Source: Bauldia sp. (GTDB lineage Bacteria > Pseudomonadota > Alphaproteobacteria > Rhizobiales > Kaistiaceae). From it: a stretch of DNA of 64,000 nt. A model generated the notes under the pieces. It searched no databases. It was not told where the DNA came from and saw nothing but the letters and a program-made list of their open reading frames with translations. Position numbers and translations under genes: made by a program. This document shows, in pieces, positions 4,738 to 47,506 of this stretch (the stretch's first letter is position 1; every line of letters starts with the position of its first letter). The stretch is taken from NCBI GenBank assembly GCA_037200845.1, contig JBBCGQ010000001.1:1054001-1118000 (forward strand), read 5' to 3'.

Positions 4738-5760
4738 ATGATCCCGCGCGACACCGTCTTTCTTATCCTGCGCACGCTGGCCATCGCGTTCGCCGGCGGC
4801 TTCCTCGCCAACCTCGTCGGCCTGTCCGCCGGGTGGCTGTCCGGCTCGATGATCGCCGTCACCGTCTGCGCCATCGGCCGCCTGCCGGTGCACGTCCCGC
4901 CGCGTGTCGCCGACGCCGTCTTCATCGTGCTGGGCGCGCTGCTCGGCGCCGGCATCACGCCCGAGATCGTGTCGCGCATCGGCGCCTGGCCGCTGAGCCT
5001 CGCCAGCCTGCTGATCAGCGTCCTCGCCATGGTCGTCGCCGTGCAGGTCTATCTCGTGCGCGTCGCCGGCTGGGATCGCAGCACCGCGTTCTACGCTTCG
5101 CTCCCCGGCGCGCTGTCCTACGTCGTGGCGCTCGCCGCCGCCTCCGGCGCGGATCTCCGCCGCGTCGTCGTCGGCCAGAGTATCCGCCTGTTCCTGCTGG
5201 TCGTGGCGATTCCCGCGCTGGTCTCCTCGCTGGAGCCGATCGTGCCGCCGACACCGCCGCCGCTGATGGCGCCGATCCCGCTGGTGCTGCTGCTCGCCGC
5301 CTCCACGGCAGGCGCGCTCGTCTTCGCCGCGCTCCGCGTTCCCGCCGCCTACCTCACCGGCGCGCTGCTCGTCAGCGGCGTCGCCCACGCCGCCGGCATC
5401 GTCTCCGGCACGCTGCCGCCGGCGCTCACCGTCGTCGCCTACATCACCCTCGGCGCCATGATCGGCGGCCGTTTCGTCGGCACCGACCTCGCGTTCCTGC
5501 GCCGCATCGCCGCCGCCTCGATCGGCGCCTTCCTCGTTGCCACCGCGATCGCCGCGCTGTGCGCCTTCGCCGTTGCCGCGGTGGTCGATGTGCCGCTGGT
5601 CCAGATCCTCGTCGCCTTCGCCCCCGGCGGCCTCGACACCATGACGGCGCTGGCGCTCGCCCTCCACATGGATTCGGCGTTCGTGGCGGCGCACCAGTTG
5701 GCGCGCTTCGTCGGCATTGCGGTGGTTGCGCCGTTCGTGGCGCGGCGAATGCCGACCTAG
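4738..5760 (+). CDS. AbrB-family integral membrane protein
   Basis: 340 residues with about ten hydrophobic segments. The repeated pattern [19 protein letters not shown] near the N-terminus and [12 protein letters not shown] in the second half reflects the internal duplication of the AbrB/ammonia-monooxygenase-like membrane family (PF05145), whose members are proposed regulators or transporters. ATG 4738 is chosen over an in-frame GTG at 4714 because a purine-rich GCGGAG lies at suitable distance and MIPRDT begins the conserved region. The stop overlaps the convergent hemA stop by three bases. Confidence 0.8.
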
Positions 5761-7046
5761 CCGCCGGCGGGCGGGAAGAAGCCGGCGCGGGCGTTACCGC
5801 GGGCCGCGACCCGCTGGCCCTCCGGCTCGCCGTCGTCGGCAAAGCGCGGCAGGCCGATCTCGTCCCACACATCGGCAAGCGCCGCGGCGAGTGTCGCGAT
5901 CAGCGCCGCGTCGTGGAACGGCGTCGGCGTGATCCTGAGGCGCTCCTGCCCGCGCGGCACCGTCGGATAGTTGATCGGCTGGATGTAGATCGCGTGCTCG
6001 GCGAGCAGCAGATCGCTCGCCTTCTTGCACAGCTCGGCGTCGCCGACGAACAGCGGCACGATGTGCGTCTCGCTCGCCATCACCGGCAGCCCGGCTTCGG
6101 TCAGCGCCTGCTTCGTCGCCGCGGCGTTGCGCTGTTGCGCATCGCGCTCCGCCGACGACGCCTTGAGATGGCGGATCGAGGTCAGCGCCGCGGCCGCGAT
6201 CCCTGGGGGGAGCGCGGTGGTGAAGATGAAGCCCGGCGCATACGAGCGCACGGTATCGACGATGGCGCGCGAGGCGGCGATGTATCCGCCGAGCGCGCCG
6301 AAAGCCTTGGCGAGCGTCCCCTCGATGATGTCGATGCGGTGCATGACGCCGTCGCGCTCGGCGATGCCGCCGCCGCGCGGGCCGTACATGCCGACCGCGT
6401 GCACCTCGTCGAGATACGTCATCGCGCCGTACTTTTCGGCGAGGTCGGCGATCTCTCCGATCGGCGCGATGTCGCCGTCCATCGAGTAGACCGACTCGAA
6501 CACGATCAGCTTGGCGCGCGACGGCGAGGCCGCTCTCAACAGCTCCTCGAGGTGCGCCATGTCGTTGTGACGGAAGATCACCTTCTGCGCGCCCGAGCGC
6601 CGCACGCCCTCGATCATCGAGGCGTGGTTCAGTTCGTCGGAGAAGATAATGCAGTCGGGCAGCAGCTTGGCGACCGTCGAGATCGTCGCCTCGTTCGAGA
6701 CGAAGCCCGAGGTGAAGACCAGCGCGGCTTCCTTGCCGTGCAGATCGGCCAATTCGTCTTCCAGCATCACCAGCGGATGGTTGGTGCCCGAGATGTTGCG
6801 TGTCCCGCCGGCCCCGGCGCCCATCGTGCGGGCGGCCTCCGTCATCGCCGCGATCACGGCGTCGTTCTGCCCCATGCCGAGATAGTCGTTGGAGCACCAC
6901 ACCGTGATCTCCCGGTCGCCGGCGTCCGAATGCCAGATCGCCTTGGGAAACCGCCCGGCGACCCGCTCGAGATCGGCGAAAACCCGATACCGGCGCTCGG
7001 CGTGGAGCGCGGCAATCGCCTCGGCGAAGATCGACCGGTAATCCAT
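5757..7046 (-). CDS. hemA: 5-aminolevulinate synthase
   Basis: 429 residues, slightly longer than the usual ~405. It condenses glycine with succinyl-CoA to form 5-aminolevulinate, the first step of tetrapyrrole synthesis in alphaproteobacteria. The N-terminus [11 protein letters not shown] is the typical start, so ATG 7046 is preferred to an in-frame start further upstream. Motifs: [22 protein letters not shown] (substrate/PLP loop), the [14 protein letters not shown] segment, and [13 protein letters not shown] with the PLP lysine. Expressed alone, divergent from the lytic transglycosylase gene; the shared 210-nt spacer carries dyad symmetries that might regulate either gene. Confidence 0.95.
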
Positions 7047-8122: not shown

Positions 8123-9262
<1,140 letters not shown>

Positions 9263-9264
9263 CT

Positions 9265-10188
9265 ATGGCCGGCCCGATCCTCCTGTTCGGCGGCACCGGC
9301 ATGGTCGGCCATAATCTCCGCGACCTCGCCGCCGAGCGGAACGTCGAGATCGTCGCCCCGGCGCATCGCGAAGTCGATCTCCTCGACGGCAGGGCGGTGC
9401 TCGCGGCGGTCCGCAAATACGCGCCCTCGATCGTGGTCCACACCGCCGGCCGCGTCGGCGGCATCGAAGCCAACATGCGCGAGCCGGTCGCCTTCCTCAC
9501 CGACAATTGGGAGATGGGCCGCAACGTAGTGATGGCGGCGAAGGAAGCCGGCGTCACCCGCCTGATCAATCTCGGCTCCTCCTGCATGTACCCGAAAGAT
9601 TCGCCGCGCCCGCTCGTCGAGGGCGACATCCTGTCCGGTCCGCTCGAGCCGACGAACGAGGGCTACGCCATCGCCAAGAGCGCGGTGCAGCGCCTCGCCG
9701 CCTACATCGGCACCGAGGATCCGCTCTACCGGTACAAGACGCTGGTGCCGTGCAATCTCTACGGTCGCTACGACAGCTTCGACCCGAAGCGCTCGCACCT
9801 CGCCGCCGCCGTGATTCACAAGCTGCACGAGGCGAAGGCGAGCGGCGCGACGTCGGTGTCGATCTGGGGCGATGGCACCGCGCGGCGCGAATTCCTTTAC
9901 GCCGGCGATCTCGCCGACGCGATCCTCGCCGCCATCGCCCGCTTCGACGACCTGCCGCCGGTGATGAACGTCGGCCCCGGCATCGACCACGCCGTCAACG
10001 ACTACTACGAGGTCGCCGCCAAGGTGATCGGCTACACCGGTAGCTTCACCCACGACCTGACCAAGCCGGTCGGCATGAAGCGCAAGCTGATGGACGTGGG
10101 CCTCGCCCGAAGCTTCGGCTGGGAAGCGAAGACAAGCCTCGAGCAGGGCCTCGCCTTGAGCTACGCCGGCTACCTCGCGACGCGATAG
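9265..10188 (+). CDS. fcl: GDP-L-fucose synthase
   Basis: 307 residues, normal for the epimerase/reductase that turns GDP-4-keto-6-deoxymannose into GDP-L-fucose using NADPH. Motifs seen: [10 protein letters not shown] (cofactor), LGSSCMYPK with the catalytic Ser/Cys, EGYAIAKSA (YxxxK) and NLYGRYDSF. It follows gmd by two bases, so the two make a complete GDP-fucose branch. Its 3' end overlaps the convergent sugar-epimerase gene by 19 nt. Confidence 0.95.
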
Positions 10189-11171
10189 CCACGGTACCAA
10201 TCGACGAACGCGCGCACGCCGGCGTCCAGCGGTGTCGCCGTCTCGTATCCCGTCAGCAGCTTGAGCAGCGCCGAGCTCGCGTGCGTGTGCGGCACGTCGC
10301 CCGGCTGCATCGGCAGCATGGTGCGGATCGCCGGCCGGCCGACCGCCGCCTCGACCGCCGCCACGAGATCGAGCACGCCCACTGGCCGCCCGCCGCCGAT
10401 GTTAACCGCCCGGAACGGCGCCTGCGGCGACAGCGAATCCCCGGCGACCCGGTTGGCTTCGTCGGGCGCGATCGGGATCAGCCGCACGATCGCCTCGACG
10501 AGGTCGTCGACGTAGGTGAAGTCGCGGGTCATATCGCCGTTGCCGTATATCTCGATCGGCCGCCCGGCGAGTACGGCGTCGACGAACTTGAATAGCGCCA
10601 TGTCCGGCCGCCCCCACGGCCCGTAGACCGTGAAGAAGCGCAGCGCCGTCGTCGGCAGGCGATGCAGGTGCGACTGGCTGTGTGCCATCGCCTCCATCCC
10701 CTTCTTGGTGGCGGCATAGAGCGACAGCGGCTCGTCCGCCCGGTCGCTCTCGCCGAACGGCACCTTGGCGTTGGCGCCGTAGACCGAGCTGGTCGAGGCG
10801 ATCAGCAGATGCTTGACGCCCAATGTCCGCGCCAGGTCGATCACGTTCCACGAGCCGGCGAGATTGGCACTGACGTAGGCGTCCGGATTTTCCATCGCGT
10901 AGCGCACCCCCGCCTGCGCCGCGAGGTGGACGATGACGTCGGGCGTGGCGAGATCGGCGGCCCGCGAGAGCGCCGCCTTGTCCTCGAGCATTCCCGTGAC
11001 GCCGGTGAAGCCGTTGGCGGCGGCAAGGATCGCGTGCCGCGCCTCCTTCAGCCGCACGTCGTAGTAGGGCGTCATGCCGTCAAAGCCGATGACGACATGC
11101 CCGTCGCCGATCAGCCGTCGCGCGAGATGAAATCCGATGAACCCGGCGGTGCCGGTGACGAGCAGCCTCAT
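10170..11171 (-). CDS. NAD-dependent UDP-glucuronate 4-epimerase-like protein
   Basis: 333 residues. The Rossmann start [20 protein letters not shown] fixes the start at 11171. [24 protein letters not shown] and [11 protein letters not shown] (YxxxK) match the UDP-glucuronate 4-epimerase (LspL/Cap1J) clade; [17 protein letters not shown] is especially typical of it. The likely product is UDP-galacturonate for polysaccharide synthesis. ugd, about 6.8 kb upstream on the same strand, would supply UDP-glucuronate. The exact substrate is inferred from family resemblance. Confidence 0.85.
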
Positions 11172-11220
11172 GTGCCGCAGCTTATGTGGCTCGCACCCGC
11201 GCCGGAAGGGGATGTGCCGC

Positions 11221-11365
11221 ACCCCTCCCCAAAACGCCTTCGGCGTTTTGACCCTCCCACAAGGGGAGGGTTCATCCCTGCTAGAACATCGCGTTCCAAC
11301 GAACTCCGCTTAAGCCCTCCCTTGCGGGAGGGCCAAAACCGCATTTAGCGGTTTTGGGGAGGGGT
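11221..11365. repeat. palindromic repeat element, family A copy 1
   Basis: About 145 nt flanked by ACCCCTCCCC and its complement. It contains four hairpins: an AAAACGCC-type stem, two CCCTCCC/GGGAGGG stems and an AAAACCGC-type stem. The middle segment ending in AACTCCGCTTAAG recurs, reverse-complemented, in the copy at 39389-39532. It occupies nearly the whole gap between the epimerase gene and the NTF2-like gene. Confidence 0.8.
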
Positions 11366-11401: not shown

Positions 11402-12553
11402 CTACTGCGCCAGGGCCGTCGCCGGCTGGTCTGCCGGCGCCGTGTCGACGCCGATCGCGAATATCCGCCACTGCCCGTCCTCGAACCGGAAGGCGAGATC
11501 GAAGTTCACGGTCTCCGGCTGGCTCGGAAAGTAGCCGGCGAGCCGCAGGTAGCCGTTGGCGTCGATCGCCGCCGGGCGGAAGAGGCGCGGGTCGATCACC
11601 GCGACCGGCGCGAGGTCGAGGCCGCGCGCCCGGATGTTGGCGAACGCGTCGCTGAGCTTCGCCGGGCTGTTCGCCTGCTGGAAGCCGATCGCCGAGAGAT
11701 CGCGCAGCACCGAGTAGTCGCCCGAGATGTTCGCCTGGTTGAGCCCCAGCACCGCCCCGCGGATCAGCGCCAGCAGCGACGGGTTGTCGGGCAGCGCCGT
11801 CGCCGTCGCCGGCTTCGCGGCCGGTGCCGCCGAGCCGTCGCGCGGCGGGTGGACGCCGAGGCCGAACAGGCGCCAGCGCCCGTTGACCGTCTCGAACGCG
11901 AACTCGAAATCGACCTTGGCTTCGGCGAGCGGCACGAACCCGGAGAGCCGCAGGAAGCCGTCCGCGTCGATCACCGGGTCGGTGTAGAGGCGCGGGTTGA
12001 TGGCCGCGACTGCGGCAAGATCGATGTTGGCGGCGCGCAGGCCCGTAAAGGCCTGGCTGAGCGCCGCCGCATCGTTGCGCGCCTGGAACTCCGGCGCCGC
12101 CAGTGCGCGCAGCACGGCGTAGTCGCCGGTGACGTTGGCTTGGTGCAGCGCCACGATCGCGTTGCGGATGAGCAGCACCAGCCCCTGCACGTTCGGGATC
12201 GGCGCATGCGGCTGCGTGGCGGCGGGCGCCGTCTCCGCCACCTGCGCCCTGGGTTTCGCTGCCGGGGCAGGGGCAGGCGACGGCGTCGCTACTGCCGCCA
12301 CCGGCTCCGAACGAAATAGCGGATCGAGGACCGCGGCAGCGCCCGCGAGGTAGGCGATGGAGCCGACGACGGCGAACCCGGCGCCGAGCCACAGCGAGCG
12401 CGCCACCCTCAGCAACACCGACGGCCGCCGCCAGTGGAAATATCCCGCGCCGCGTTCCTGGCGCGCGCGCTCGTCCTCGTGCTGCGCCCGCCGGCGGGGC
12501 GGCGGCGCCTCGTCTTCCTCGTCTGGTTCGGCCTCATGGACCAACCGCAGCAT
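11402..12553 (-). CDS. membrane-anchored protein with duplicated NTF2-like (DUF4864-like) domain
   Basis: 383 residues, function unknown. Residues 1-45 are charged and basic, a single membrane helix follows at about 48-72, then a Pro/Ala-rich linker. Two tandem domains of about 115 residues come next (roughly 118-235 and 250-370). Each follows the same script: an LIR..A helix, QAN(V/I)(T/S)GDY(A/S)VLR, an (L/I)DLA.VA.I(N/D)PRL strand, D(A)(D/N)G(F/Y)LRL(S/A)G, and a final NGRWRLFGLGV or DGQWRIFAIGV strand. This pattern resembles DUF4864/NTF2-like domains, which are usually exported or membrane-tethered. The topology suggests a periplasmic pair of domains. It lies 30 nt downstream of the giant repeat protein gene on the same strand. 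Confidence 0.7.
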   Translation of the reverse strand: MLRLVHEAEPDEEDEAPPPRRRAQHEDERARQERGAGYFHWRRPSVLLRVARSLWLGAGFAVVGSIAYLAGAAAVLDPLFRSEPVAAVATPSPAPAPAAKPRAQVAETAPAATQPHAPIPNVQGLVLLIRNAIVALHQANVTGDYAVLRALAAPEFQARNDAAALSQAFTGLRAANIDLAAVAAINPRLYTDPVIDADGFLRLSGFVPLAEAKVDFEFAFETVNGRWRLFGLGVHPPRDGSAAPAAKPATATALPDNPSLLALIRGAVLGLNQANISGDYSVLRDLSAIGFQQANSPAKLSDAFANIRARGLDLAPVAVIDPRLFRPAAIDANGYLRLAGYFPSQPETVNFDLAFRFEDGQWRIFAIGVDTAPADQPATALAQ

Positions 12554-12583
12554 TGGTCGCCCTTGTCCGGTTTTGGCGCGCCG

Positions 12584-15500
12584 CTAGCGCGTCCACTGCA
12601 GTCCCAAATGCGCCCCGAACTGGTTTTCGCCGATCCCGTTGGCGAAGCCGAGCCCGGCGCCGCCCGAGACCGCGATCCGGTCGCCCGGCTGCAATACGTC
12701 ATGCCCGATGACGCCCATCGCCGAGACGGCGAAGGCATAGGCGCCGCTGAAGGTGCCGAAGTTGCCGCTGATGCCGAAGAGTTCCGGGCCGGCCAGGTCG
12801 GGGTTCTGCGTCGCCATCGCGAGCGCGATGCCCGAGGCGTGCTCGTCGAGCGTCTTGGTCAGGAAGCCGTTGTCGGTCGCGAGGTTGCCGTTGGCGTCCG
12901 ACGTGACGAGCTCGATCGGCCCGCTCTGGCGGCTGCGGCTGAGGTCGGAGGTGATGCCCGGCGTTGTGTAGGTCTGCTTCACCGTGCCGATGACGACCTG
13001 ATCGAAGGTCGTGGCGTGCGCTCCGATACCCGACGAATCGGTGCCGATGGCGACGCTGCCGATTCCGTCCGCCGTCGCGCCATGACCGATGGCGATGCCG
13101 TAGGTGCTGCCGGCGTTGGCGCCGGTACCGATCGCGATCGTGTCGAATACCGGCGTGGCCAGGCTGCCGACGTCGTTGCCGGCTCCCGTGCCGAACGCGA
13201 GGTTGTTGATGCCGTAGACCCGATTTCCGGAATTCTCGCCCATCGCCACGTTGCTGCTGCCGTAGACGGTGTTGCCGGTGTTGAAGCCCGTCGCGATGTT
13301 GTTGACGCCGCCGGTCACCGGGTTGCCGTGGCTGTCGACGCCGATCCCGAAGATGTCGTTGCCGCTGTGGTATCCGCTCGCCTGGTTGTAGTCGCCGGTC
13401 ACTCGCCCGCCGGAGTCAACGCCACTCGCCTGGTTGCCGTTGCCCTTGACCTTGTAGCCGACGGTGTTGCCGGAGGCGATGTTGTTGCTGCCGGTAACTT
13501 CGTTTCCGCAATCGACGCCGCTCGCCTGGTTGCTGTCGCCCGTGACGGTGTCGCCGCATCGCGCGCCGCTCGCCAGGTTGTTGGCGCCAGTCACCGCGTT
13601 GCCGACCTCCAGGCCGGACGCCTGATTGTGGTCGCCGGTGACGTGATCGCCGGCGTCGGTGCCGCTCGCCTGGTTGTTCCTGCCGAGGACGTAGTTGCCG
13701 GAACGGAAACCGCTAGCCTGGTTGTCCTGCGCGAGGCCCGCCGGATCTCCCAGAGCCGCGTTGCCGAGATGGTTGCCGACGTCCTGGCCGGAGGCCTGGT
13801 TGTTCTTGCCGTAGACATCGCTGCCGGCGAGATAGCCGGACGCCTGGTTGTCGGAGCCGGTCACGCCGATGCCGCTGGTGTCGCCGCTCGCCTGGTTGTT
13901 CGTGCCGGTGACGGTGTTGCCGACATTGTTGCCCAGCGCCAGGTTGCGATCGCCGTTGACCGCGTTGCCGGAACCGTTGCCGACCACGTTGTTGTTCGTC
14001 GCGCCGGTCAGGTAGCCGACGCCGGAACCGTCGCCGAAAACGTGGTTGAACTGGACATTGCTGCCCGCGTCGTTGCCCGAGCCGTTGCCGACGATAAAGT
14101 TGGTGGCGAAGTTCATGCCGTTGTTGCGGCCGGAGGTGTCGCCGAAGATCGCATTGTCCGCGAAGCCCGTAGCGTTGTGATAGCCCGAGTTGTCACCGAC
14201 GATCGTATTGCCGGTAAAGGTGCCGAGGTTCTCGTTGCCCGAGTTCTTGCCGGTGACCGTATTCTTGGAGAAGCCGTCCGCGTTGCCCTTGCCCGAGTCG
14301 TCGCCGAATATGCTGTTGTTGGCGAAGTTCTTGCCGTTCGTCCTGCCCGAAAAATCGCCGACGATCGTGTTGCTGTCGAACCCGCTGCCGTTTTGGTAGC
14401 CCGAGTCGTCGCCGACGATCGTGTTGTTGGTGAAGGTGCCGAGGTTGTAGGTGCCTGAGCTTTTGCCGGTGATGGTGTTGTTCGAGAAGCCGTCCGCGTT
14501 GCTGACACCCGAGTCGTCGCCGAATATCCGGTTCTTGGCGAAATTCTTGCCGTTGGTCCTGCCGGAGCCGTCGCCGACGACCGTGTTGTTGTCGAACCCG
14601 CTGCCGTTCTGGTAGCCCGAGTTATCGCCGACGATCGTGTTGTTGGTGAAGGTGCCGAGGTTGTTGTTGCCCGAGCTCTTGCCGGTGACCGTGTTGTTCG
14701 AGAACCCGGCCACGTTGCTGTTGCCGGAGTCCTCGCCGAATATCCGGTTGTCGGAGAAGTTCGCGCCGTTAAGCCGGCCCGAGCCGTCGCCTACGATGCT
14801 GTTGTCGCTGAACCCGCCGGCGTTCTGGTAGCCCGAGTCGTCGCCGACGATCGTGTTGTCGACGAAGGTGCCGAGGTTGTTGTTGCCGGACCGCTCGCCG
14901 TAGACCGAGTTCTTGGCGAAGCCCGCGGCATTGTCCTTGCCGGAGTTGTCGCCGAAGATCTCGTTGTCGACGAAGCCGTCGGCGTTGTTGTTGCCGGAAT
15001 TGTCGCCCGCGACGTTGTTGCCGCTGTAGCCGCCGTCGTTGTCCTTGCCGGAATTGTCGCCCCAGATCGAGTTATCGACGAAGCCCGCGGCATTGTTGTT
15101 GCCGGAGTTATCGCCGGTCACGTTGTTGCCGGTGTAGGTGCCCTTGTTGTCTTTGCCGGAATTGTCGCCGGTGATGATGTTGTCCTTGAAGTTCGGCGCG
15201 TTGTTGTTGCCCGAATGGTCGCCGGTGATGGTGTTGCCGGTGTAGGTGCCTTTGTTGTCGGTGCCCGAGTTGCTGCCCCAGATCGAATTTTTGGCAAAGC
15301 CCTCGGCATTGTTGTTGCCCGACTCGTCGCCGAAGATGGCATTGTTGGCGAAGCCGTCCTTGTTGCTCTTGCCGGAATTGTCGCCCGCGATGTTGTTGCC
15401 GCTGAAGCTGCCGAGGTTGTCCTTGCCGGAATTGTCGCCCCAGATCGAGTTGTCGACGAAGCCCGAGGCATTGTTGTTGCCGGACTTGTCGCCGATGACG

Positions 15501-16630
15501 CTATTGCCGGTGTAGACGCCCTTGTTGTCGTCGCCGGAGTTGTCGCCGGTTATGACGTTGTCCTTGAAGTTCGCGGCGTTGTTGTTGCCCGAGTGATCGC
15601 CGCTGACGCTGTTGCCGGTGTAGAGGCCCTTGTTGTCGGTGCCCGAGAAGTCGCCCCAGACGTAGTTGTTGGTGAAGTCAGCCGCGTTGTGGGTGCCCGA
15701 ATTGTCGCCGTAGAAGAAATTGCTGCTGAAGTTGTTGCCGTTGTCGTCGCCGGTGTTGTTGCCGTAGATGACGTTGTTGGTCACCGTCCCGGCATTGTGC
15801 TTCGCCGAGTCATGGCCATAGACCGTGTTGCCGGTGAGATTGCCGACGTTTTCGCGGCCGGATTTGTCGCCGTAAATCACGTTGTCGGTGACATCGCCGG
15901 TGTTCTCGCGCGCCGACGAGTCGCCGAACACGAAGTTGCCCGTGACGATTGTCGTTCCCGACGTATTGGAGTTGTTGCTGCCGGAATCGTCGCCGGTGAT
16001 CACGTTGTAGGTGACGGTGGCGTTGCCGTTGCCGTTGCTGACGAGGCCGTTGTTGCTGCCGGAGTTTTTGCCGCTGATCTGGTTGTAGCTGACCGTCGCG
16101 TTTCCGGTCTTGCTGTTGGCGCCGACGCCGTTGCCGCTCGCCGAGCCTTCGCCGTAGACCGCGTTGTAGAAAATGTTCGCCGTCGCCCGCTGGCCGGGAC
16201 CGTTGCCCGACGTCGAGCCGTTGTTCTTGCCGGAATTGTCGCCGTGGAAGTCGTTATGGTCGATCGTCGCGGTCGCGTTGCCCGTGCCGCCGCCGGTGAT
16301 CGTCCCGTTGCCGGAGGCAGCTCCGTTGCCCGTCGCGGAGTTGCCGAGGATGGTGGCCCCTGCGACTCCATTCCCCGTGTCGCCGTTACCGATACCGGCG
16401 CCGGCGCCGAACGTGTTGTCCTTGCAGTTGAGGGCGTCGCTGCCCATCGCGGCGGATTCGCCGTTGTTGGTGCCGCCGGTGCCCAGCAGGAAGTTGTCAG
16501 GGGCGGGCGGGCAATTCAAAGCGAAAGCCGCGCCGCTATAGAGCGACGCGAACGCTCCGATTATCAGCGCCAACGCCAGCCGCGAGGCAGCACGACGACC
16601 CGAAAATTCGCTTTTCTGCGAGGCACGCAT
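12584..16630 (-). CDS. giant YadA-like repeat surface protein (18-residue beta-solenoid)
   Basis: 1348 residues from ATG 16630. A long signal peptide of about 37 residues ends AFA-LN. An irregular Gly/Asn-rich section follows, then about 36 back-to-back 18-residue coils (residues ~236-883) with consensus GDxSGxxNxxGFxxNxIx. Next come 16-residue coils (NQASGxxxGxxVTGxx, to ~1120), which grade into 14-15-residue AIGxGAxA repeats like the YadA adhesin head. The last ~90 residues, from ASGIALAMA through AVSGGAGLGFANG to the terminal LGLQWTR, resemble the YadA outer-membrane anchor. This predicts an exported trimeric adhesin-like fibre. Base composition is lower in GC than the neighbours because of Asn codons. 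It follows the FecR gene and precedes the NTF2-like gene on the same strand. The function is inferred, not shown. Confidence 0.8.
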   Translation of the reverse strand: MRASQKSEFSGRRAASRLALALIIGAFASLYSGAAFALNCPPAPDNFLLGTGGTNNGESAAMGSDALNCKDNTFGAGAGIGNGDTGNGVAGATILGNSATGNGAASGNGTITGGGTGNATATIDHNDFHGDNSGKNNGSTSGNGPGQRATANIFYNAVYGEGSASGNGVGANSKTGNATVSYNQISGKNSGSNNGLVSNGNGNATVTYNVITGDDSGSNNSNTSGTTIVTGNFVFGDSSARENTGDVTDNVIYGDKSGRENVGNLTGNTVYGHDSAKHNAGTVTNNVIYGNNTGDDNGNNFSSNFFYGDNSGTHNAADFTNNYVWGDFSGTDNKGLYTGNSVSGDHSGNNNAANFKDNVITGDNSGDDNKGVYTGNSVIGDKSGNNNASGFVDNSIWGDNSGKDNLGSFSGNNIAGDNSGKSNKDGFANNAIFGDESGNNNAEGFAKNSIWGSNSGTDNKGTYTGNTITGDHSGNNNAPNFKDNIITGDNSGKDNKGTYTGNNVTGDNSGNNNAAGFVDNSIWGDNSGKDNDGGYSGNNVAGDNSGNNNADGFVDNEIFGDNSGKDNAAGFAKNSVYGERSGNNNLGTFVDNTIVGDDSGYQNAGGFSDNSIVGDGSGRLNGANFSDNRIFGEDSGNSNVAGFSNNTVTGKSSGNNNLGTFTNNTIVGDNSGYQNGSGFDNNTVVGDGSGRTNGKNFAKNRIFGDDSGVSNADGFSNNTITGKSSGTYNLGTFTNNTIVGDDSGYQNGSGFDSNTIVGDFSGRTNGKNFANNSIFGDDSGKGNADGFSKNTVTGKNSGNENLGTFTGNTIVGDNSGYHNATGFADNAIFGDTSGRNNGMNFATNFIVGNGSGNDAGSNVQFNHVFGDGSGVGYLTGATNNNVVGNGSGNAVNGDRNLALGNNVGNTVTGTNNQASGDTSGIGVTGSDNQASGYLAGSDVYGKNNQASGQDVGNHLGNAALGDPAGLAQDNQASGFRSGNYVLGRNNQASGTDAGDHVTGDHNQASGLEVGNAVTGANNLASGARCGDTVTGDSNQASGVDCGNEVTGSNNIASGNTVGYKVKGNGNQASGVDSGGRVTGDYNQASGYHSGNDIFGIGVDSHGNPVTGGVNNIATGFNTGNTVYGSSNVAMGENSGNRVYGINNLAFGTGAGNDVGSLATPVFDTIAIGTGANAGSTYGIAIGHGATADGIGSVAIGTDSSGIGAHATTFDQVVIGTVKQTYTTPGITSDLSRSRQSGPIELVTSDANGNLATDNGFLTKTLDEHASGIALAMATQNPDLAGPELFGISGNFGTFSGAYAFAVSAMGVIGHDVLQPGDRIAVSGGAGLGFANGIGENQFGAHLGLQWTR
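13036..13960 (-). repeat. 16-residue (48-bp) coil repeats and YadA-head-like repeats inside the giant protein gene
   Basis: About a dozen units of the form N(Q/L/I)ASGxxxGxxVTGxx follow one another. Two units are expanded by insertions, and the series passes into shorter AIGTGA/AIGHGA units. Two neighbouring coils carry a cysteine in the same phase (codons at 13556-13558 and 13508-13510, exactly 16 codons apart). Confidence 0.85.
13982..15925 (-). repeat. 36 tandem 54-bp coding units (18-residue coils)
   Basis: Thirty-six units of exactly 54 bp without indels encode 18-residue coils starting GD/GN/GK/GE..SG. Units are arranged in higher-order blocks: a 7-unit block repeated twice (15278-15655 and 14900-15277) and a 4-unit block repeated three times (14630-14845, 14414-14629, 14198-14413). 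Confidence 0.9.
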
Positions 16631-16946
16631 GGCACAACACCCGGCTCGCTCGAAAACATCGAGCTCCGACACCGTGCCGCGGGCGGCGCCAACTCCACAT
16701 TCAACGAACCTCGGGCCTCACGAGATCCGCTACGCGTGGTAGCTGAATTCGTAGCGTTCCCCGGGGGATCGGTCTAGTTGGAGCAATTTGGTTAAGGCGC
16801 TGGTTACGCTGGTAAACGGGCCGAAAGACCGCAGAAACAATGGCTTTCGGAGTATTTCGGCCCGCTGCCTATAGTTTTCGCAGCGCAAGATTCGCACAAC
16901 ACTGTTGCAGTCAGGCAACGCAGGCGGCTGCGGCCGCTCCGTCCCG
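16631..16946. other. intergenic spacer between the FecR gene and the giant repeat protein gene
   Basis: 316 nt with no convincing gene. It probably holds the 5' leader of the giant protein gene on the minus strand. A TATAGG-like -10 candidate is visible at 16868-16873 on that strand, but no good -35 goes with it. The Shine-Dalgarno before ATG 16630 is weak. Confidence 0.4.
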
Positions 16947-17834
16947 CTAGGGGCGAATGAGCGGCCGGGTGTCGCCCTGCACCGGGAAAGTGGTGTTGTT
17001 GTTCGGCGGCGTCGGCGACCCCGGGAGCGACGGCGTCAAGGGCGTCGGCAGGCCGGGCGGCGACGGCGGGGTGATAATCGGCGGCGTGCCGATGGTGCCC
17101 GGCGGGGCCACACGCTGCTCGAGCGGGACGATCACGTCCGCCAGCTTGCACTGTGTCAGGTCGACCTGAAAGTCGCGGCGCAGGCTCGACTGGTCGCGGA
17201 CATAGTTGAAGTAATACTTGAGCTGACGGTTGCGGAACTCGAGGTCCTTGTTGTCGTAGGTCACCACGCGATCGGTCGGCCGGATGACCGACAACGTGCA
17301 CGGATCCTTGGATTCCGTGCAGTCCGCGCGGTTGGCGCTGCCGCGCGGGCAGATGCGCGTCATGCCTTCGAAATTCGCGACGCGCGTCGTGCCCTGGCCC
17401 TCGATCGAGATATCGAACTGGGTGCCGCGGACACCGATCGTCGCGGTCGGCGTGTTGATCTGGTAGGCGTCCTTGCGGCTGATGCCGGTGAAGAAGCGGA
17501 ACACGCCCTTGGTCGCGTCGAGCGTGATCGCGCGGGCGGTGTTGCTGTCGTTGAAGACGAAGGCATCGACGACCATCGAGGAATTCGGCCCGACGACCAG
17601 CTTGGTCTTGTCGCGGAATTCGATCTGGGCTTCGCCTACGGGCCCGGTCTCGATCCGGTCGCCGGCATAGATGGGCGACTGGATATTGAGGACCGCGCTG
17701 CCTTCCGCGCCGACCGCGCTGGCCGACTGGATGACGCCGAGAACCGTGCCGCTGGGCGTTGCGGCGAGTGCGCTTCCCGCCCACCCAGCCAGAACTACAG
17801 CGGCGCCAACGCAAAACATCTTCCACGCCGTCAT
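16947..17834 (-). CDS. secreted FecR-domain protein
   Basis: 295 residues with a signal peptide of about 24 residues (cleavage after SALA). A FecR domain (PF04773-like) covers roughly residues 45-155: GDRIETGPVGEAQIEFRDKT, GPNSSMVVDAF and INTPTATIGVRGTQFDI are all typical. The C-terminal quarter is a proline-rich low-complexity tail. Unlike true FecR anti-sigma regulators it has no cytoplasmic helix and no sigma factor gene beside it, so it is probably a periplasmic or secreted structural/sensor protein. GGAGACC precedes the ATG. It sits upstream of the giant YadA-like gene on the same strand. Confidence 0.8.
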   Translation of the reverse strand: MTAWKMFCVGAAVVLAGWAGSALAATPSGTVLGVIQSASAVGAEGSAVLNIQSPIYAGDRIETGPVGEAQIEFRDKTKLVVGPNSSMVVDAFVFNDSNTARAITLDATKGVFRFFTGISRKDAYQINTPTATIGVRGTQFDISIEGQGTTRVANFEGMTRICPRGSANRADCTESKDPCTLSVIRPTDRVVTYDNKDLEFRNRQLKYYFNYVRDQSSLRRDFQVDLTQCKLADVIVPLEQRVAPPGTIGTPPIITPPSPPGLPTPLTPSLPGSPTPPNNNTTFPVQGDTRPLIRP

Positions 17835-17939: not shown

Positions 17940-19283
17940 TTACTCCGCTGCCGCAGCGATGGCCCCGAGGCCGGCGTCGGCCGGCCGGCCGACCCCGACA
18001 TAGCGGAAGCCGTGCCGCATCACGTCGCGCGGGTCGTAAACATTGCGGAGATCGACCAGCACCGGCTCGGCCATGACTGTCTTCAGCCGCTCGAAATCGA
18101 GGGCGCGGAACGCGTTCCACTCGGTGACCAGCACGACCGCCGCGGCGCCTGACGCCACGGCATAGGGATCATCGCCGAACCCGACCCCGGCCGTCATCGT
18201 CCGCGCCGCCGGCATCCCTTCCGGGTCGTACGCCTGCACGTTGGCGCCGGCGTCCTGCAACGCCTGGATGATCGCCAGCGACGAGGCGTCGCGCATGTCG
18301 TCGGTGTTCGGCTTGAAGGTGAGGCCGAGCAGCCCGATCGTCTTACCGCGCACGCTGCCGCCGCACGCCGCGATCACCTTGCGCGCCATGCCGCGTTTGC
18401 GCTGGTCGTTGATCGCGACCGTCGTCTCGACCAGCCGGAGCGGCGCGCCGGCGTCGTGTCCGGTCTTGACCAGCGCCACCGTGTCCTTCGGAAAGCACGA
18501 GCCGCCGTAGCCCGGACCCGCGTGCAGGAACTTCGCGCCGATGCGCTTGTCGAGGCCGATCGCGTGCGCCACGCCCTGCACGTCGGCGTTGACCGCCTCG
18601 CAGAGGTCGGCGATCTCGTTGATGAAGGTGATCTTCATCGCCAGGAACGCGTTGGCCGCGTACTTCGCCAGTTCCGCCGTCCGCCGCGTGGTGAACAGGA
18701 GAGGGGCCTGGTTGAGGTAGAGCGGGCGGTAGACTTCCGTCATCACGTCGCGCGCCCGCTCGTCGTCGAGCCCGATGACGATGCGGTCCGGCCGTTTGAA
18801 GTCCTCGATCGCGGCGCCCTCGCGCAGGAACTCGGGATTGGAGACGACCGCGATGTCGGCGTGGGGATTTGCCTCGCGGATGATCCGCTCGATCTCGTCG
18901 CCGGTCCCGACCGGCACCGTCGATTTGGTGGCGACCACCGTGAAGCCGCGCAGCGACCCGGCGAGTTCGGTCGCCGCCGCGTAGACGTAGCCGAGGTCGG
19001 CGTGCCCGTCGCCGCGCCGCGACGGCGTGCCGACCGCGATGAAGACGACGTCGGCCTCTGCCACCGCCGGCCCCATGTCGGTAGTGAACGACAGGCGCCG
19101 GGCCTTCCGGTTCGCGCCGACGAGGTCGGCGAGCCCCGGCTCGAAGATCGGCACGGCGCCGCCCTTCAGTGCCTCGATCTTGGCGCTGTCCTTGTCGATG
19201 CACACGACCTCGTGGCCGAAATCGGCGAAACAGGCGCCGGAGACCAGCCCGACATAGCCCGATCCGATCATTGCGATACGCAT
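17940..19283 (-). CDS. ugd: UDP-glucose 6-dehydrogenase
   Basis: 447 residues. NAD site GSGYVGLVSGACFADFGHEV at the N-terminus; the catalytic cysteine lies in GGSCFPKDT; FKPNTDDMRDASS and LVTEWNAFR mark the C-terminal UDP-binding domain. It oxidises UDP-glucose twice to UDP-glucuronate in the cytoplasm, feeding acidic exopolysaccharide or capsule. Its product is the substrate for the 4-epimerase encoded downstream at 10170-11171. The gene is divergent from the GDP-mannose 3,5-epimerase gene, with a 213-nt spacer. Confidence 0.95.
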   Translation of the reverse strand: MRIAMIGSGYVGLVSGACFADFGHEVVCIDKDSAKIEALKGGAVPIFEPGLADLVGANRKARRLSFTTDMGPAVAEADVVFIAVGTPSRRGDGHADLGYVYAAATELAGSLRGFTVVATKSTVPVGTGDEIERIIREANPHADIAVVSNPEFLREGAAIEDFKRPDRIVIGLDDERARDVMTEVYRPLYLNQAPLLFTTRRTAELAKYAANAFLAMKITFINEIADLCEAVNADVQGVAHAIGLDKRIGAKFLHAGPGYGGSCFPKDTVALVKTGHDAGAPLRLVETTVAINDQRKRGMARKVIAACGGSVRGKTIGLLGLTFKPNTDDMRDASSLAIIQALQDAGANVQAYDPEGMPAARTMTAGVGFGDDPYAVASGAAAVVLVTEWNAFRALDFERLKTVMAEPVLVDLRNVYDPRDVMRHGFRYVGVGRPADAGLGAIAAAAE

Positions 19284-19496
19284 GGCACCTCCTGCCCTGA
19301 AAGTGCTCTAGCACCGAGCCCCAGCCCTCGGCAAAGGCGCCCTGGCATAATGGCTAAGCGGTGCGGCGCATCGCCCCGGCGGATATCCCCGTTCTTTCCC
19401 TTGCCGGCCCGTCAATCGCATGGCGTCGTGGCGCCGACGGCATTAACCTGAGCCTTCGCAGGGTGGATTCGTCAGAGTCCCCGAGGAGGCGGAATC

Positions 19497-20477
19497 TTGG
19501 CAAAGTCAGCGCTCGTCTGCGGCGCCGGTGGGTTCATCGGCAGCCATCTCGTCAAGCGTCTGAAACGCGAGGGCTTCTGGGTCCGCGGCGTTGACCTCAA
19601 GTTTCCCGAATTCACGGAAACCGAGGCCGACGACTTCGTCATCGGCGACCTCCGCGACCAGTCGGTCGTCGACCGCGTCATCGACCGCCCGTTCACCGAG
19701 GTCTTCCAGCTCGCCGCCGACATGGGCGGCGCCGGCTACCTGTTCACCGGCGATCATGACGCCGACATCATGCACAATTCGGCGACCATCAACCTCAACG
19801 TCGCGGACCGCTCGCAGAAGCGCAACATCAAGCGCATTTTCTATTCCTCCTCCGCCTGCATCTACCCGGCCTACAATCAGGAAGACCCGGACAACCCGGA
19901 TTGCTCGGAGGCGCACGTCTATCCTGCTGCCCCTGACAGCGAATACGGCTGGGAGAAGCTGTTCTCCGAGCGCCTGTTCCTCGCCTACAACCGCAACCAC
20001 GGCATGGCCAACCGCGTCGCCCGCTACCATAACGTCTTCGGTCCCGAGGGCACGTGGTCCGGCGGCAAGGAGAAGGTGCCCGCCGCGATCTGCCGCAAGG
20101 TGGCGATGGCCAAGAACGGCGGCGAGATCGAGATCTGGGGCGACGGCCACCAGACGCGCTCGTTCCTTTATATCGACGAATGCCTCGAAGGCACCGTGCG
20201 GCTGACGCGCTCCGATTTCGAGGGGCCGGTAAACGTCGGCTCGGACGAGATGGTGTCGATCAACCAGCTCGTCGACATGGTCTCCGACATCGCCGGCAAG
20301 CGCCTCGCCAAGCGCCACGTTCCCGGCCCGCAGGGCGTGCGCGGGCGCAACTCGGACAATCGCCTGATCAACGAGAAGCTGGGCTGGCGCCCGAGCCAGC
20401 CCCTCGTCGTCGGGCTGGAGAAAACCTACGGCTGGATCGAGCAGCAGGTACACCGCAACCACCGCAGCGCCGCCTGA
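19497..20477 (+). CDS. GDP-mannose 3,5-epimerase-like NAD-dependent epimerase
   Basis: 326 residues, starting with TTG at 19497 behind a strong GAGGAGG (19483-19489). The sequence follows the GDP-mannose 3,5-epimerase family: CGAGGFIGSHL cofactor loop, LAADMGGAGY, SSSACIYP with the catalytic cysteine, EYGWEKLFSERL (YxxxK), then RYHNVFGPEGTW and GGKEKVPAAICRK. The best-studied members are plant enzymes that make GDP-L-galactose; bacterial homologues exist. The probable role here is supplying an unusual GDP-hexose for surface polysaccharide. tRNA-Thr follows 56 nt downstream. Confidence 0.8.
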   Translation: MAKSALVCGAGGFIGSHLVKRLKREGFWVRGVDLKFPEFTETEADDFVIGDLRDQSVVDRVIDRPFTEVFQLAADMGGAGYLFTGDHDADIMHNSATINLNVADRSQKRNIKRIFYSSSACIYPAYNQEDPDNPDCSEAHVYPAAPDSEYGWEKLFSERLFLAYNRNHGMANRVARYHNVFGPEGTWSGGKEKVPAAICRKVAMAKNGGEIEIWGDGHQTRSFLYIDECLEGTVRLTRSDFEGPVNVGSDEMVSINQLVDMVSDIAGKRLAKRHVPGPQGVRGRNSDNRLINEKLGWRPSQPLVVGLEKTYGWIEQQVHRNHRSAA

Positions 20478-20533
20478 TCTTCTTGAACCGGGCCGGCCCC
20501 TGTGGCAGGTAACGCCCGCTTGGTCGAAGCAAG

Positions 20534-20608
<75 letters not shown>

Positions 20609-20725
20609 GTTACTCGCAAAGCTCTTCTGTCATGCGTTCGTGTAAAGTGCCGATCGCCCGGCGACGCCAGGACGTGCGCCTATTCGGGATTTCCTTCCGC
20701 CGTAATTGAGTGAGCGTTGCAGGCC

Positions 20726-21289
20726 ATGCAGTTCACAGTGATGCCGCTCACGATTCCGGACGTGGTTGTCATCTCAACACGGCCGATCGCCGACGCGAGA
20801 GGCCACTTTGTCGTGGTTTACGAATTGAACGCGTTCCGGGAATTCGGCCTGCCGGTCTTCGTCCAGGATAATCAGGCCCTTTCGCACCGCCGCGGGACCA
20901 TTCGCGGCCTGCACTACCAGACAGAGCCACACGCCCAGGCCAAGCTTATCCGGGTTTTGAGGGGCGCCATCTTCGACGTCGCGGTTGACCTGCGCCGCAG
21001 TTCGCCGACTTTCGGCAAATGGGTAAGCGCTACGCTGACGGCCGAGTCCGGCGACCAGTTGTTCGTGCCAAAGGGTTTTGCCCACGGCTACTGCACGCTC
21101 GAAGATGCCACCGAGGTCGCCTACCGATGCGATGACTTCTACGCGCCGCGCGCTGAAGCCGGCGTCCACTTCGCCGATCCCGCACTGGCCATTCCCTGGC
21201 CGGTATCGCTGGAGGCGGCAATCCTCGCCGACAAGGATCGCGCTCTGCCGAAGTTCGCGGATGCGGCGACCTTCGGGGTTGCTGCGTGA
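20726..21289 (+). CDS. rfbC: dTDP-4-dehydrorhamnose 3,5-epimerase
   Basis: 187 residues of the RmlC cupin family. Signature segments are [21 protein letters not shown] with the catalytic histidine, [13 protein letters not shown] and VPKGFAHGY. It epimerises C3 and C5 of dTDP-4-keto-6-deoxyglucose. ATG 20726 is preferred to a TTG nine bases upstream, since [13 protein letters not shown] matches the usual length before the barrel. Its TGA stop lies inside the GTGA that starts rfbB, giving tight translational coupling. Confidence 0.93.
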
Positions 21290-22353
21290 AGCCCCGGCGC
21301 TTCCTCGTCACCGGCGGCGCGGGCTTCATCGGCTCGGCGCTTGTCCGTCACCTCATCGCGGAGACCCCGCACGAAGTCGCGGTGATCGACATATTGACCT
21401 ACGCCGGCAGCCGCTCGTCGCTGGAGCAGGCGGCAGTCAGTTCGCGCTTCCGTTTCTTCCACGACGACATCGGCAACGCCGCACGCATGCAGCAGGTCTT
21501 CGCCGCCGTCGAGCCCGACGTGGTCATCCACCTCGCCGCCGAAACCCATGTCGATCGCTCCATCGGTGACGCGGGCAAATTCATTTCCACCAACATCGTC
21601 GGCACGTTCCATTTGCTGGAGGTCGCGCTCGCCTATTGGCGCAAGCTGTCACCGGCGCGGCGGTCGGAGTTCCGCTTCCACCATGTTTCGACCGATGAAG
21701 TCTTCGGAGCCCTTGGGACTGACGGCAGCTTCAACGAAGCGTCGCCTTACCAGCCGAATTCGCCCTATTCCGCGTCCAAGGCGGCGTCCGATCATCTGGT
21801 CCGCGCTTGGCACCGCACCCACGGACTGCCAGTGGTCGTCAGTAACAGCAGCAACACGTTCGGCCCGTACCAGCACCCTGAGAAGCTGATCCCGCTCAGT
21901 ATCCTGAACGCGCTTGAGGGGCGGCCGTTGCCGGTTTACGGCGACGGCAGGCAGGTGCGCGACTGGCTCTACGTCGAGGATCACGTCCGCGCGCTGACCG
22001 CGATTGCGGAGCAGGGTGAAGTCGGCGAGACGTATCTCGTTGGTGGTACCGGCGGCACAACAAATCTCGATGTCGTCAAGGCGATCTGCGGTCTCGTCGA
22101 TCGCAGGGCGCCGGACTCCTCGATCGGGCGGCGCGACAGGCTGATCGCCTTCGTCGCGGATCGCCCTGGACACGATTTCCGCTACAGCGTCGATGCCGCC
22201 AAGCTGCGCCGCGATCTCGGCTGGGAACCTCGCGAGAGCTTTGCGGCCGGCCTCGCCAAGACCGTCGACTGGTACATCGCCAATCGCGCGTGGTGGGAGC
22301 GGCTTCGCCCGCGCCTCGAGCCGGACCGCCGTGTCGCGGCTGCCGAACGGTGA
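21286..22353 (+). CDS. rfbB: dTDP-glucose 4,6-dehydratase
   Basis: 355 residues, starting with GTG at 21286 that overlaps the rfbC stop. [14 protein letters not shown] binds [22 protein letters not shown] (with the catalytic Thr-Asp-Glu) and [11 protein letters not shown] (YxxxK) are family-diagnostic, as is [15 protein letters not shown]. It dehydrates dTDP-glucose to dTDP-4-keto-6-deoxyglucose. Second gene of the rfbCBA set; rfbA follows with an identical GTGA overlap. Confidence 0.95.
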
Positions 22354-41758: not shown

Positions 41759-44700
41759 CTACCGCGTCGGCCCGACCACCTCGACCGTGCCGGTGCCTGT
41801 GCGGGCGAAGAGTTCCGGCCGGTACATGTCCTCGACCGTCGCCGCCGGCTGGGCGAAGACGCCCGGCGAGACGGCGCGCACCGAGTAGGCGACCGTGATG
41901 TCGGTCGACGAGCCGTCATCGCGGTCGACCGCGGCGATGAAGCGGTCGGTGCGTGCTTCGGTATGGGTCGCCGTCGAGGTCGACAGCCAGTCGTAGGATT
42001 GCACCGAGCCGCCCGTCGAGATGTCGGGATTCTCGATCTCGAACCCGGCCGGGATCGGGTCGGTGATCATCAGGTGGCCGCCGTAGTCGTGGTCGGAGGT
42101 CACGTTGATCTCGACCACGAAGCGGTCGTTCTGCTTCACCGTGGCGATGTCGGCTTCCTCGCCGTCGGGCGTGTAGTACGTCCGCTCGATCTTGAAGCCG
42201 TTGCCGCCGGCGGGATCCGGCGTCGTCGGCACGCCGGTCGCCGCCACGATCGCGTCGAGCTTGTCGGCGCCGAGATTTTCGATCTCGACCGGCGTCTGCT
42301 CGACGCGGTCGCCGGAGAAGCGGCGGAAAAGCGGCGCCGCGATGCGCTGCCCGTCGATCGAGAAATCGGTCTTCGCCGAATCCTTGATGAGGGCCGCCGC
42401 GGCGAGCAGCATCCACGAATTCTCCTGCGTGCTCGTGTAGGTCTTCTTCATCTCGTTCGCGGCGATGCGCGAAGCGAGGGTGCGGATATCGACGCTGTCC
42501 TCGTTGGTCTCCGCCGCAAGCGTCAGCACTGCCGCCTGGTCGCGCAGGATGGTGCCGTAGTCGCGCCGCCAGAAGGGCTTCGCCTCCTGCTTGTAGACGT
42601 CGGCCATCGCCGCGTTGAAGGCGCGCCCGGCCCGTTGCCGGTCGCCATAGAGCGCCATCGCCGCGCCGATCTGGGCCTTGGCGAGCGGGGTGGAGAACGC
42701 GGTCAGCTTCGAGTCCGTGTAGTAGCGCAGGTCGCCGATCGCCGCCCGGCCCGTGCGGGCGAGCACGTAGAGCGAATAGGCGATGTCCTCGCCGCCCGAC
42801 TCGAAGTCGTTGGCATAGGCGATGCGGTTGGCGAGGTTGTCGAGCGCCAGCGTCTTGGCGAGGTCGGGCACCTGGTAGCCCTTCTCCGAGGCGCGCGTCA
42901 GGAAGTCGGTGACGTACGCATCGAGCCACAGGTCGTTGCCGGCGCCCTCCGGCCCCCAGAGGCCGAAGCTGCCGGACGCCGCCTGGTCGGCGAGCACGCC
43001 CTGGATCGCCTTCTGCACCCGCGCCCGCACGTCCGCGTCGGCCGCAAGCCCGATGGAAGCCGCGACGTCGTCGAGATAGACGAGCGGCATCGCGCGCGAC
43101 GTGAGTTGCTCGACACAGCCGTACGGGTAGCGGTCGAGCGCATCGAGGATGCCCGACACGTCGAGCGGCCCGGCGCCGCCGAGCGACACCGCCACCGACG
43201 TCGTGCCCGGCACGAAATCGGTGAGCAGCTCGCCGTCGATGGTGAGCGAACCGCCGCCCGCCACCGAGACGACGTTACGCCGCGTCACCGGCGTTCCCGG
43301 CGGACGGATTCCGAGCATCAGGTTCGCCGGGAAGGTCTCGCCGTTGGGCGCGGTCAGCGTCACGTTGATGTCGAAGTCGCCGGCCCTGTCGCCGCTTATC
43401 GGAATGTTGAAGGCGACGCGCTGCTTCTCGGCGAGCGTCACGTTGCGCGTGGCGTCCTCGTCCTTGAAGCCGATGCCTTCGCCGGTCGCGACCGCCAGCG
43501 TGTAGTCGCCGGCCGGTCCCGAAAGATTGTTGAGCTCGACCAGCAGACGTGAGGAGTCGCCGACGGCCAGGAAGCGCGGCACGCTCGCGGTCACCACGAC
43601 CGGGTCGCGCACCAGCACGTCCTTGGCAACATGGCCGACGCCGCCCGCCGACCACGCCATCGCCATGATGCGGACGCTGCCGTTGAAGTCGGGCACGTCG
43701 AAGGTCACCGACGCCTTACCCTGATCGTCGACGGCGAGGATGCCGGAGTAGAACGCCAGGAGCTTCTGCGTCGGCGGCGGCGATTTCAGCCGCACCGCCT
43801 CGCTGTCGCCGCCCGAGCGCACCGCGCCCGGCACGCCCTGCATGCGGTCGATCAGCAGCCCGTAGAGGTCGCGGATCTCCATGCCGAGCTTGCGCTGGCC
43901 GAAGTACCAGTCGTCCGGCGCCGGCGTCTTGAAGTTGGTGAGGTTGAGGATGCCGACGTCGACCGCGGCGATGGTGACGAACGCATTCTCGCCCGGCTTG
44001 AGGTTGGTGATCGTGAACGGGATCGTCATCGGCCCGCGCGGACGCAATTCGTCCGGCACGTCGAGCGACACGTTGAGTAGCCGGTCTCCGGGCGAGACCT
44101 TCGCCCACGTCAGGCCGACGGCGCGCGCCGGCATGCGCTTCGCCTCCACGTCCATCGGACGGTAGAGCGTCGCGGTGACGTAGGCGCCCGGGCCCCAATC
44201 CTCGGTGATCTGCAGATCGACCGTGGTGCCGCCCTCCGGCACGTCCACCGTCTTCATCGCGATCAGCCGGTCGTCCATCACCTGGATGAGCGCCGTGCCC
44301 GCGAAGCGCGGGTCGAGGCGAAGCTTCGCCGTATCACCGATCTGGTAAGCCGGCTTGTCGAGCGCTACCTGCAGCGTGTCCGGGGTGTCGGACGACGCCA
44401 CGGCGCGGTACCAGCCGGCGTAGAACTCGACGCTCGACGCGGTGCTGTCGCCGTCGCTGACGGTCAGGCGGTAGTCGCCCCATTTCACCGACGAATTGAT
44501 GCGCGCCGGCCCGTCCGCCTTGAAGTCGACGGTGCCGCCATCGACCTTGGAGGCGGTCGTGATCAGCTCGTAGTTCCACGTGCCGTTGGTGCGGTACCAC
44601 TGGTAGTCCGACTCGATGCGCTCGAGCTTCCACGTGGCGCCGGCCTTGCCGATGCGGTTGCCGTCGGGGCCGACCAGGATCGTGTCGAACCCGGCGGAGG

Positions 44701-47248: not shown

Positions 47249-47309
47249 GGGACCTCTGCGTGGCTGCCGCCCTGCCGATGGGCGGTGGCTGACATTATGA
47301 AAGGGCCGC

Positions 47310-47326
47310 TGCACGGTAAAGGTGAC
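47310..47326 (+). promoter_or_regulatory. candidate NtrC-type enhancer site
   Basis: TGCACG-N5-GGTGAC matches 9 of 12 positions of the NtrC dyad TGCACC-N5-GGTGCA and lies about 180 nt upstream of the sigma-54 promoter, a normal enhancer distance. A neighbouring dyad CGGTGT-GAG-ACACCG (47334-47348) may be a second site. Confidence 0.4.
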
Positions 47327-47506
47327 ACGCAACCGGTGTGAGACACCGATCACACGCCTGCGGGCCGCCGCCGCTAATACAGGCTGCCACTGCTCATTCC
47401 CTGGGCGCGATCAATCCGTGAGCATCGCGCTCTGCTGCGCTGCCGAAAGAAGCAGCATCGCAGCGCGAAGAGGCCGCGCGGAATCTGGATTCCGTCTTCG
47501 CATATC

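Follow-up and report, generated by a model that had tools for sequence, protein, structure and literature searches.

The locus described here raises two questions: what kind of surface protein is built from repeats whose length falls from 18 to 16 to 14 residues along one chain, and whether the gene that follows it belongs with it. The window (the whole stretch of DNA that was analysed, 64,000 nucleotides from Bauldia sp.) encodes on its minus strand a YadA-like protein and, just downstream, a protein of unnamed family. The reading that we favour, with a probability of nearly 0.8, is that the former is a type Vc trimeric adhesin whose fibre is a widening and mostly stalkless roll, and that the latter is a membrane or periplasmic partner which helps it. 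The repeat anatomy, the conservation of the coil-size order, the adaptor module between coil sizes, the fold of the anchor and the linkage with the partner gene were computed directly.

Repeat anatomy of the adhesin and of its relatives

The adhesin gene comprises the following parts (residues are counted from the GTG codon).

12584..16672, minus strand: trimeric autotransporter adhesin, 1362 amino acids from the GTG at 16672, a single open frame
16520..16630, minus strand: putative signal peptide, residues 15-51 (MRASQ...GAAFA, followed by LNC), read from the sequence
16244..16519, minus strand: N-terminal cap region, residues 52-143, with Cys54 and Cys83
15926..16243, minus strand: longer irregular coils, residues 144-249; homologues have coils of 22-35 residues in this position
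13982..15925, minus strand: 36 uninterrupted coils of 18 residues (GDxSGxxNxxGFxxNxIx), residues 250-897
13982..14089, minus strand: two-coil 18-to-16 transition module, residues 862-897, conserved in an alignment of eight sequences
13214..13981, minus strand: about 15 coils of 16 residues, residues 898-1153, with two irregular places
13001..13213, minus strand: YadA-head-type coils of 14-15 residues, residues 1154-1224, matching PF05658
12866..13000, minus strand: connector YTTPGITSxxSRxRQSGPIELVTSDANGNLATDNG, residues 1225-1269, conserved in alphaproteobacterial relatives
12587..12865, minus strand: C-terminal membrane anchor, residues 1270-1362, one helix and four strands

An alternative start, the ATG at codon 15 (position 16630), gives a protein of 1348 residues. 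The signal peptide, judged by eye, has a typical hydrophobic stretch and an A-x-A site, and the passenger is acidic (pI of 4.3 for the mature protein). The protein had been called giant, which overstates its size: 1362 residues is ordinary for this class, in which AtaA reaches 3,630 residues (PMC4910087). Two antisense ORFs on the plus strand (12434-14458 and 15215-16777) were discounted as mirror images of the repeat frame, because homologues conserve the minus-strand frame. Profile searches of the genome of origin found only one adhesin of this kind.

About 36 uninterrupted units of 54 bp had been predicted, and there are exactly 36; Tandem Repeats Finder independently returns the 54-bp unit. 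Across the 18-residue coils, G1 and N15 are found in all 36, S4 and I/V17 in 35, G5 and N8 in 34, and F/Y12 in 31. Chance does not account for the 18-residue period: residues 18 positions apart are identical with a frequency of 0.43, whereas 1000 shuffled sequences give 0.11 (maximum 0.16). The 16-residue region has its own identity peak, of 0.40, at lag 16, and the YadA-head coils follow it; the gradation from 18 to 16 to 14 proposed from the sequence alone is thus borne out. It begins above 18, in fact, since coils of 22, 27, 26 and 23 residues precede the 18-residue array. Tandem Repeats Finder also detects higher-order units of 216 and 378 bp, and these duplications of four and seven coils indicate that the array grew by block duplication. 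The 18-residue coils are nevertheless divergent, with a mean pairwise identity of 0.45 and no two of them identical, and the ratio pN/pS in the coding frame ranges from 0.29 to 0.84 across the duplicated blocks, synonymous changes being favoured. The composition is rich in Asn (20%) and Gly (19%).

By a rough pattern test, 20 of 42 related adhesins have a pair of cysteines shortly behind the signal peptide, and Cys54 and Cys83 of the cap may form a disulfide. Two further cysteines, Cys1039 and Cys1055 (about 13508-13558), occupy the same position in two adjacent 16-residue coils, which suggests an inter-coil disulfide, as far as can be judged from the sequence.

Relatives, mainly of the C-terminal part, occur in 19 of 151 related genomes (that of Bauldia included). 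A scan with each species represented by a single genome yielded 42 named loci, most of them from Hyphomicrobium, Filomicrobium, Rhodomicrobium and their kin. Many of these relatives have 14-15-residue coils only, and a subset has the same tapering design: the order of irregular coils of 22-35 residues, then 18, 16 and, where resolvable, 14 residues is common to 11 distinct full-length proteins (that of the window and those of loci L054, L065, L047, L074, L060, L033, L053, L204, L205 and L207), among which the reversed order was never seen. Several of the 11 resolve the last step poorly, and the very N-terminus of L074 may be absent from the frame used. At L053 (2754-7465, Hyphomicrobium sp. 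D-2), the coding sequence of the adhesin passes from one frame to another within the 16-residue coils, owing either to a frameshift or to a sequencing error.

The 18-to-16 adaptor consists of the last two 18-residue coils, GxxSGNxxGxxVxxNxVx GxxSGNxYxxGAxxNxVx, with invariant G, S, N and V in the eight-sequence alignment. Among 397 genomes of the order, its profile finds the genome of origin and nine others, none of them among the other genomes of the same family that were listed; a looser count, which adds weaker matches to 16-residue coils alone, gives 15 genomes and 8 of 142 genera. In 385 genomes drawn from the class, the profile has one other, weak match (E=5e-7; L206 in genome G691), which was rejected as a tapering relative: it is a different protein, a frame of 1271 amino acids made of 17-residue Hep_Hag-like repeats. 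To go by these sequences, the taper is a conserved family trait within the order, and not a peculiarity of the window adhesin. The original prediction did not extend to this trait, nor to the conservation of the adjacent gene as a partner.

Class, fold and assembly

Searches of the whole adhesin against Pfam, NCBIfam and PDB sequences returned nothing useful. The YadA-type C-terminus that had been predicted is nonetheless supported by its homologues and by its fold. The profile check proposed for it gave a divided answer: the C-terminus of the adhesin itself matches no Pfam family (PF03895, YadA_anchor, included) and no NCBIfam family, but PF03895 is matched by 6 of 11 homologous C-termini, the best at 2.4e-9. 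The C-terminus is predicted to form a helix (residues 1270-1287) and four strands, with a pLDDT of about 90, and the top Foldseek matches of this model are the Hia translocator (3emo, 2gr7, 2gr8) and the transmembrane domain of AtaA (9vnj), with probabilities of 0.94-1.00 and weak E-values of 0.05-0.2, which probably reflect the small share of the model that the anchor takes up. From the fold of the anchor and the PF03895 matches of the homologues, we take the protein to be a trimeric autotransporter of type Vc; the single-chain fibre that the original prediction had kept as an option is unlikely, given this anchor. The YadA-head-like repeats are also confirmed: residues 1154-1224 match YadA_head (PF05658) above the Pfam cut-off in the search of the genome of origin, and just below it (E=3.6e-5) in another search.

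As to the wide coils, structure prediction had been proposed as a check on disorder, and the AlphaFold2 model of residues 201-483, computed as a monomer, is an ordered and regular beta-solenoid, with a pLDDT of about 94 over the 18-residue coils and short strands near positions 11-12 and 16-18 of each coil. In the model of the C-terminus, the part made of 14- and 16-residue coils has low confidence (pLDDT 33-75). Compared with solved structures, the solenoid has no significant match (best E 0.023, TM below 0.33), and a left-handed roll of the YadA type is therefore not established for the 18-residue coils.

This leaves room for two other readings of the array. The 18-residue region could be a monomeric beta-solenoid in each chain (three rods, or a roll like those of RTX or antifreeze proteins) carried by a trimeric anchor, only the 14-16-residue part being trimeric. 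The turn of the RTX roll is also 18 residues long, the half-repeat xGFxxNxIx resembles GGxGxDxUx, and the monomer model is confident and without match to YadA heads. However, Asn replaces Asp at the metal position of RTX repeats and no RTX family of Pfam is matched, which led us to reject a calcium-binding RTX roll, and the 18-residue coils pass unbroken into the 16- and 14-residue coils through a conserved adaptor. We regard this reading as unlikely, if the most serious of the competitors. It is much less probable still that the 18-residue coils serve as a spacer, rich in Asn, Gly and Ser and either flexible or disordered, the taper being a mere by-product of repeat expansion. The complexity of the sequence is indeed low, the four- and seven-coil duplications point to recent expansion, and AlphaFold2 is known to draw confident beta-solenoids for perfect repeats of random sequence, a bias which the authors of that study suggest is relevant only for near-perfect repeats (PMC11795689). 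The present coils, which average 45% identity, are not of that kind, and a pLDDT above 90 for them should count, at the level of a model, against disorder. Moreover, these divergent coils keep invariant Gly, Ser, Asn and hydrophobic positions, and ten other proteins have the identical order of coil sizes.

In the trimeric roll that we favour, each of three chains would contribute one helix and four strands to an outer-membrane barrel that exports the passenger. The trimerisation of the wide coils, the widening and length of the fibre, the direction of folding, the disulfide, the adhesive function and the role of the partner are what we infer from the computed features. The passenger would emerge membrane-proximal end first, so that the 14-15-residue coils would fold first and template those that follow. 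From the membrane outward, the stack would comprise the 14-15-residue coils, the 16-residue coils, the two-coil adaptor, the 36 coils of 18 residues, the looped coils and the Cys-paired cap; the adaptor coils would switch the coil size once, at the 18/16 step. The tip, with its loops and Cys-paired cap, would be the widest part and the adhesive one. About 65 coils, at the rise of about 4.3 Å seen in BpaC, would give a fibre of about 25-30 nm. The partner, located in the membrane or the periplasm, would probably aid folding, trimerisation or bracing, in a role like that of SadB or TpgA although it is from an unrelated family.

The downstream gene

The partner gene starts 30 bp past the stop codon of the adhesin.

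11402..12553, minus strand: partner gene, 383 amino acids

Its product, labelled "hypothetical protein" in RefSeq, has an apparent membrane helix at the N-terminus, a linker rich in Pro and Ala, and an unnamed domain of about 115 residues that occurs twice. Ten copies of this domain match no Pfam family at E up to 10. A search of PDB chains with the partner profile, also at E up to 10, retrieves no chain of TpgA or SadB; the weak matches are mostly to designed proteins, among them one NTF2 design, so that an NTF2-like fold can be no more than guessed at.

Homologues of the partner adjoin the adhesin in most of the collected loci, on either side of the adhesin gene. The C-terminus of an adhesin lies within 3.6 kb of 62 of 86 partner places, on the same strand in 59 of the 62, and the partner is adjacent at 45 of the 50 strongest adhesin matches. 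Among the 397 genomes of the order, the partner is found in 58, the adhesin C-terminus in 64 and both in 47 (Fisher p=6e-36); counted by genus, the figures are 31, 34 and 27 (p=2e-18), and these p-values ignore shared ancestry, so that related genomes make the co-occurrences look more independent than they are. The linkage is also found on a Rhodobacterales plasmid, and in Sulfitobacter the partner gene begins within the end of a gene that RefSeq calls "YadA-like family protein". At one locus (L034, genome G115), partner genes at 5627-6313 and 10249-10890 flank a single adhesin gene on both sides.

It could be argued that the gene next to the adhesin is only carried along by gene order, as a passenger, and is no functional partner. 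About a quarter of the partner places have no adhesin match nearby, the partner can precede or follow the adhesin gene and, as noted above, the p-values overstate independence. Among 16 partner loci that lack an adhesin match in the vicinity, only two have a large adhesin-like ORF with head-type motifs, which shows that the partner is not strictly tied to the adhesin type of the window. Against a mere passenger stand the linkage across 27 genera and on the plasmid, mostly on the same strand and often with overlapping genes, and the fact that other neighbours in the window are not retained. A gene for a FecR-domain protein with a Pro-rich C-terminus (16947-17834, minus strand) immediately precedes the adhesin gene in the same orientation, and nucleotide-sugar genes at 9127-11222 and 17940-22353 encode a UDP-glucose dehydrogenase, several NAD-dependent epimerases and a GDP-mannose-dehydratase-like protein; neither the FecR gene nor the nucleotide-sugar genes are kept as neighbours at the other adhesin loci. 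We consider the passenger explanation improbable, and a functional partner remains our preferred reading. Further away, the window encodes a bacterial alpha-2-macroglobulin of 1864 amino acids with a PAN domain near its N-terminus (41759-47353, minus strand).

Comparison with known systems

The adhesin is best described as a variant within a known class, to which it adds two conserved features, a programme of coil sizes and a partner family; no description of either was found in the open-access literature that was searched. Whether they define an alphaproteobacterial subclass of trimeric autotransporters, with a size-programmed roll (above 22, 18, 16 and 14 residues, with adaptors), no stalk, a tip that widens and a dedicated, previously undescribed accessory family, is in our opinion an even bet. 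With several coil sizes and conserved adaptor coils combined in a single natural chain, it becomes possible to ask how a trimeric roll alters its diameter, and whether extracellular folding requires a set order.

Regarding the partner, a 2021 review discusses SadB and TpgA as accessory proteins of such adhesins (PMC8151025). SadB is thought to assist the trimerisation of SadA at the inner membrane, while TpgA binds both the anchor of AtaA and peptidoglycan (PMC8151025, PMC13082670). Like them, the partner is encoded with the adhesin gene and is apparently membrane-associated or periplasmic; the differences are that no Pfam family matches it and that its profile retrieves neither of them among PDB chains at E up to 10. 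By analogy, a comparable role would be the likeliest, and the partner is a candidate for a third type of accessory protein for such adhesins, apparently one not yet described; its family would be common in Alphaproteobacteria from the environment, whose attachment to surfaces has received little study.

Solved heads of the class have 14-residue layers, the 15 residues of UspA1 being the only other regular length noted (PMC9543794). UspA1, from Moraxella, thus resembles the window adhesin in having a beta-roll head whose coils depart from 14 residues. The BpaC protein of Burkholderia pseudomallei also stacks many beta-roll layers without a break: there are 42 of them, acidic and rich in Asn, and the stack was enlarged by expansion of a multi-layer motif, but every layer of BpaC has 14 residues and there is no gradation (PMC9543794). 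Hep_Hag-like and tail-fibre proteins, such as that of L206, have coils of similar style and of about 17 residues, longer than 14, with no conserved gradation of size seen in them. YadA itself, the type Vc prototype from Yersinia, shares with the window adhesin the four-strand C-terminal anchor and a head of stacked beta-roll coils. YadA-type heads have 14-residue coils, whereas most coils of the window adhesin have 18 or 16; the non-standard layout suspected from the sequence holds in that the tapering roll makes up the fibre and the coiled-coil stalk is nearly absent, and the standard neck of YadA appears to be replaced by a different, conserved connector.
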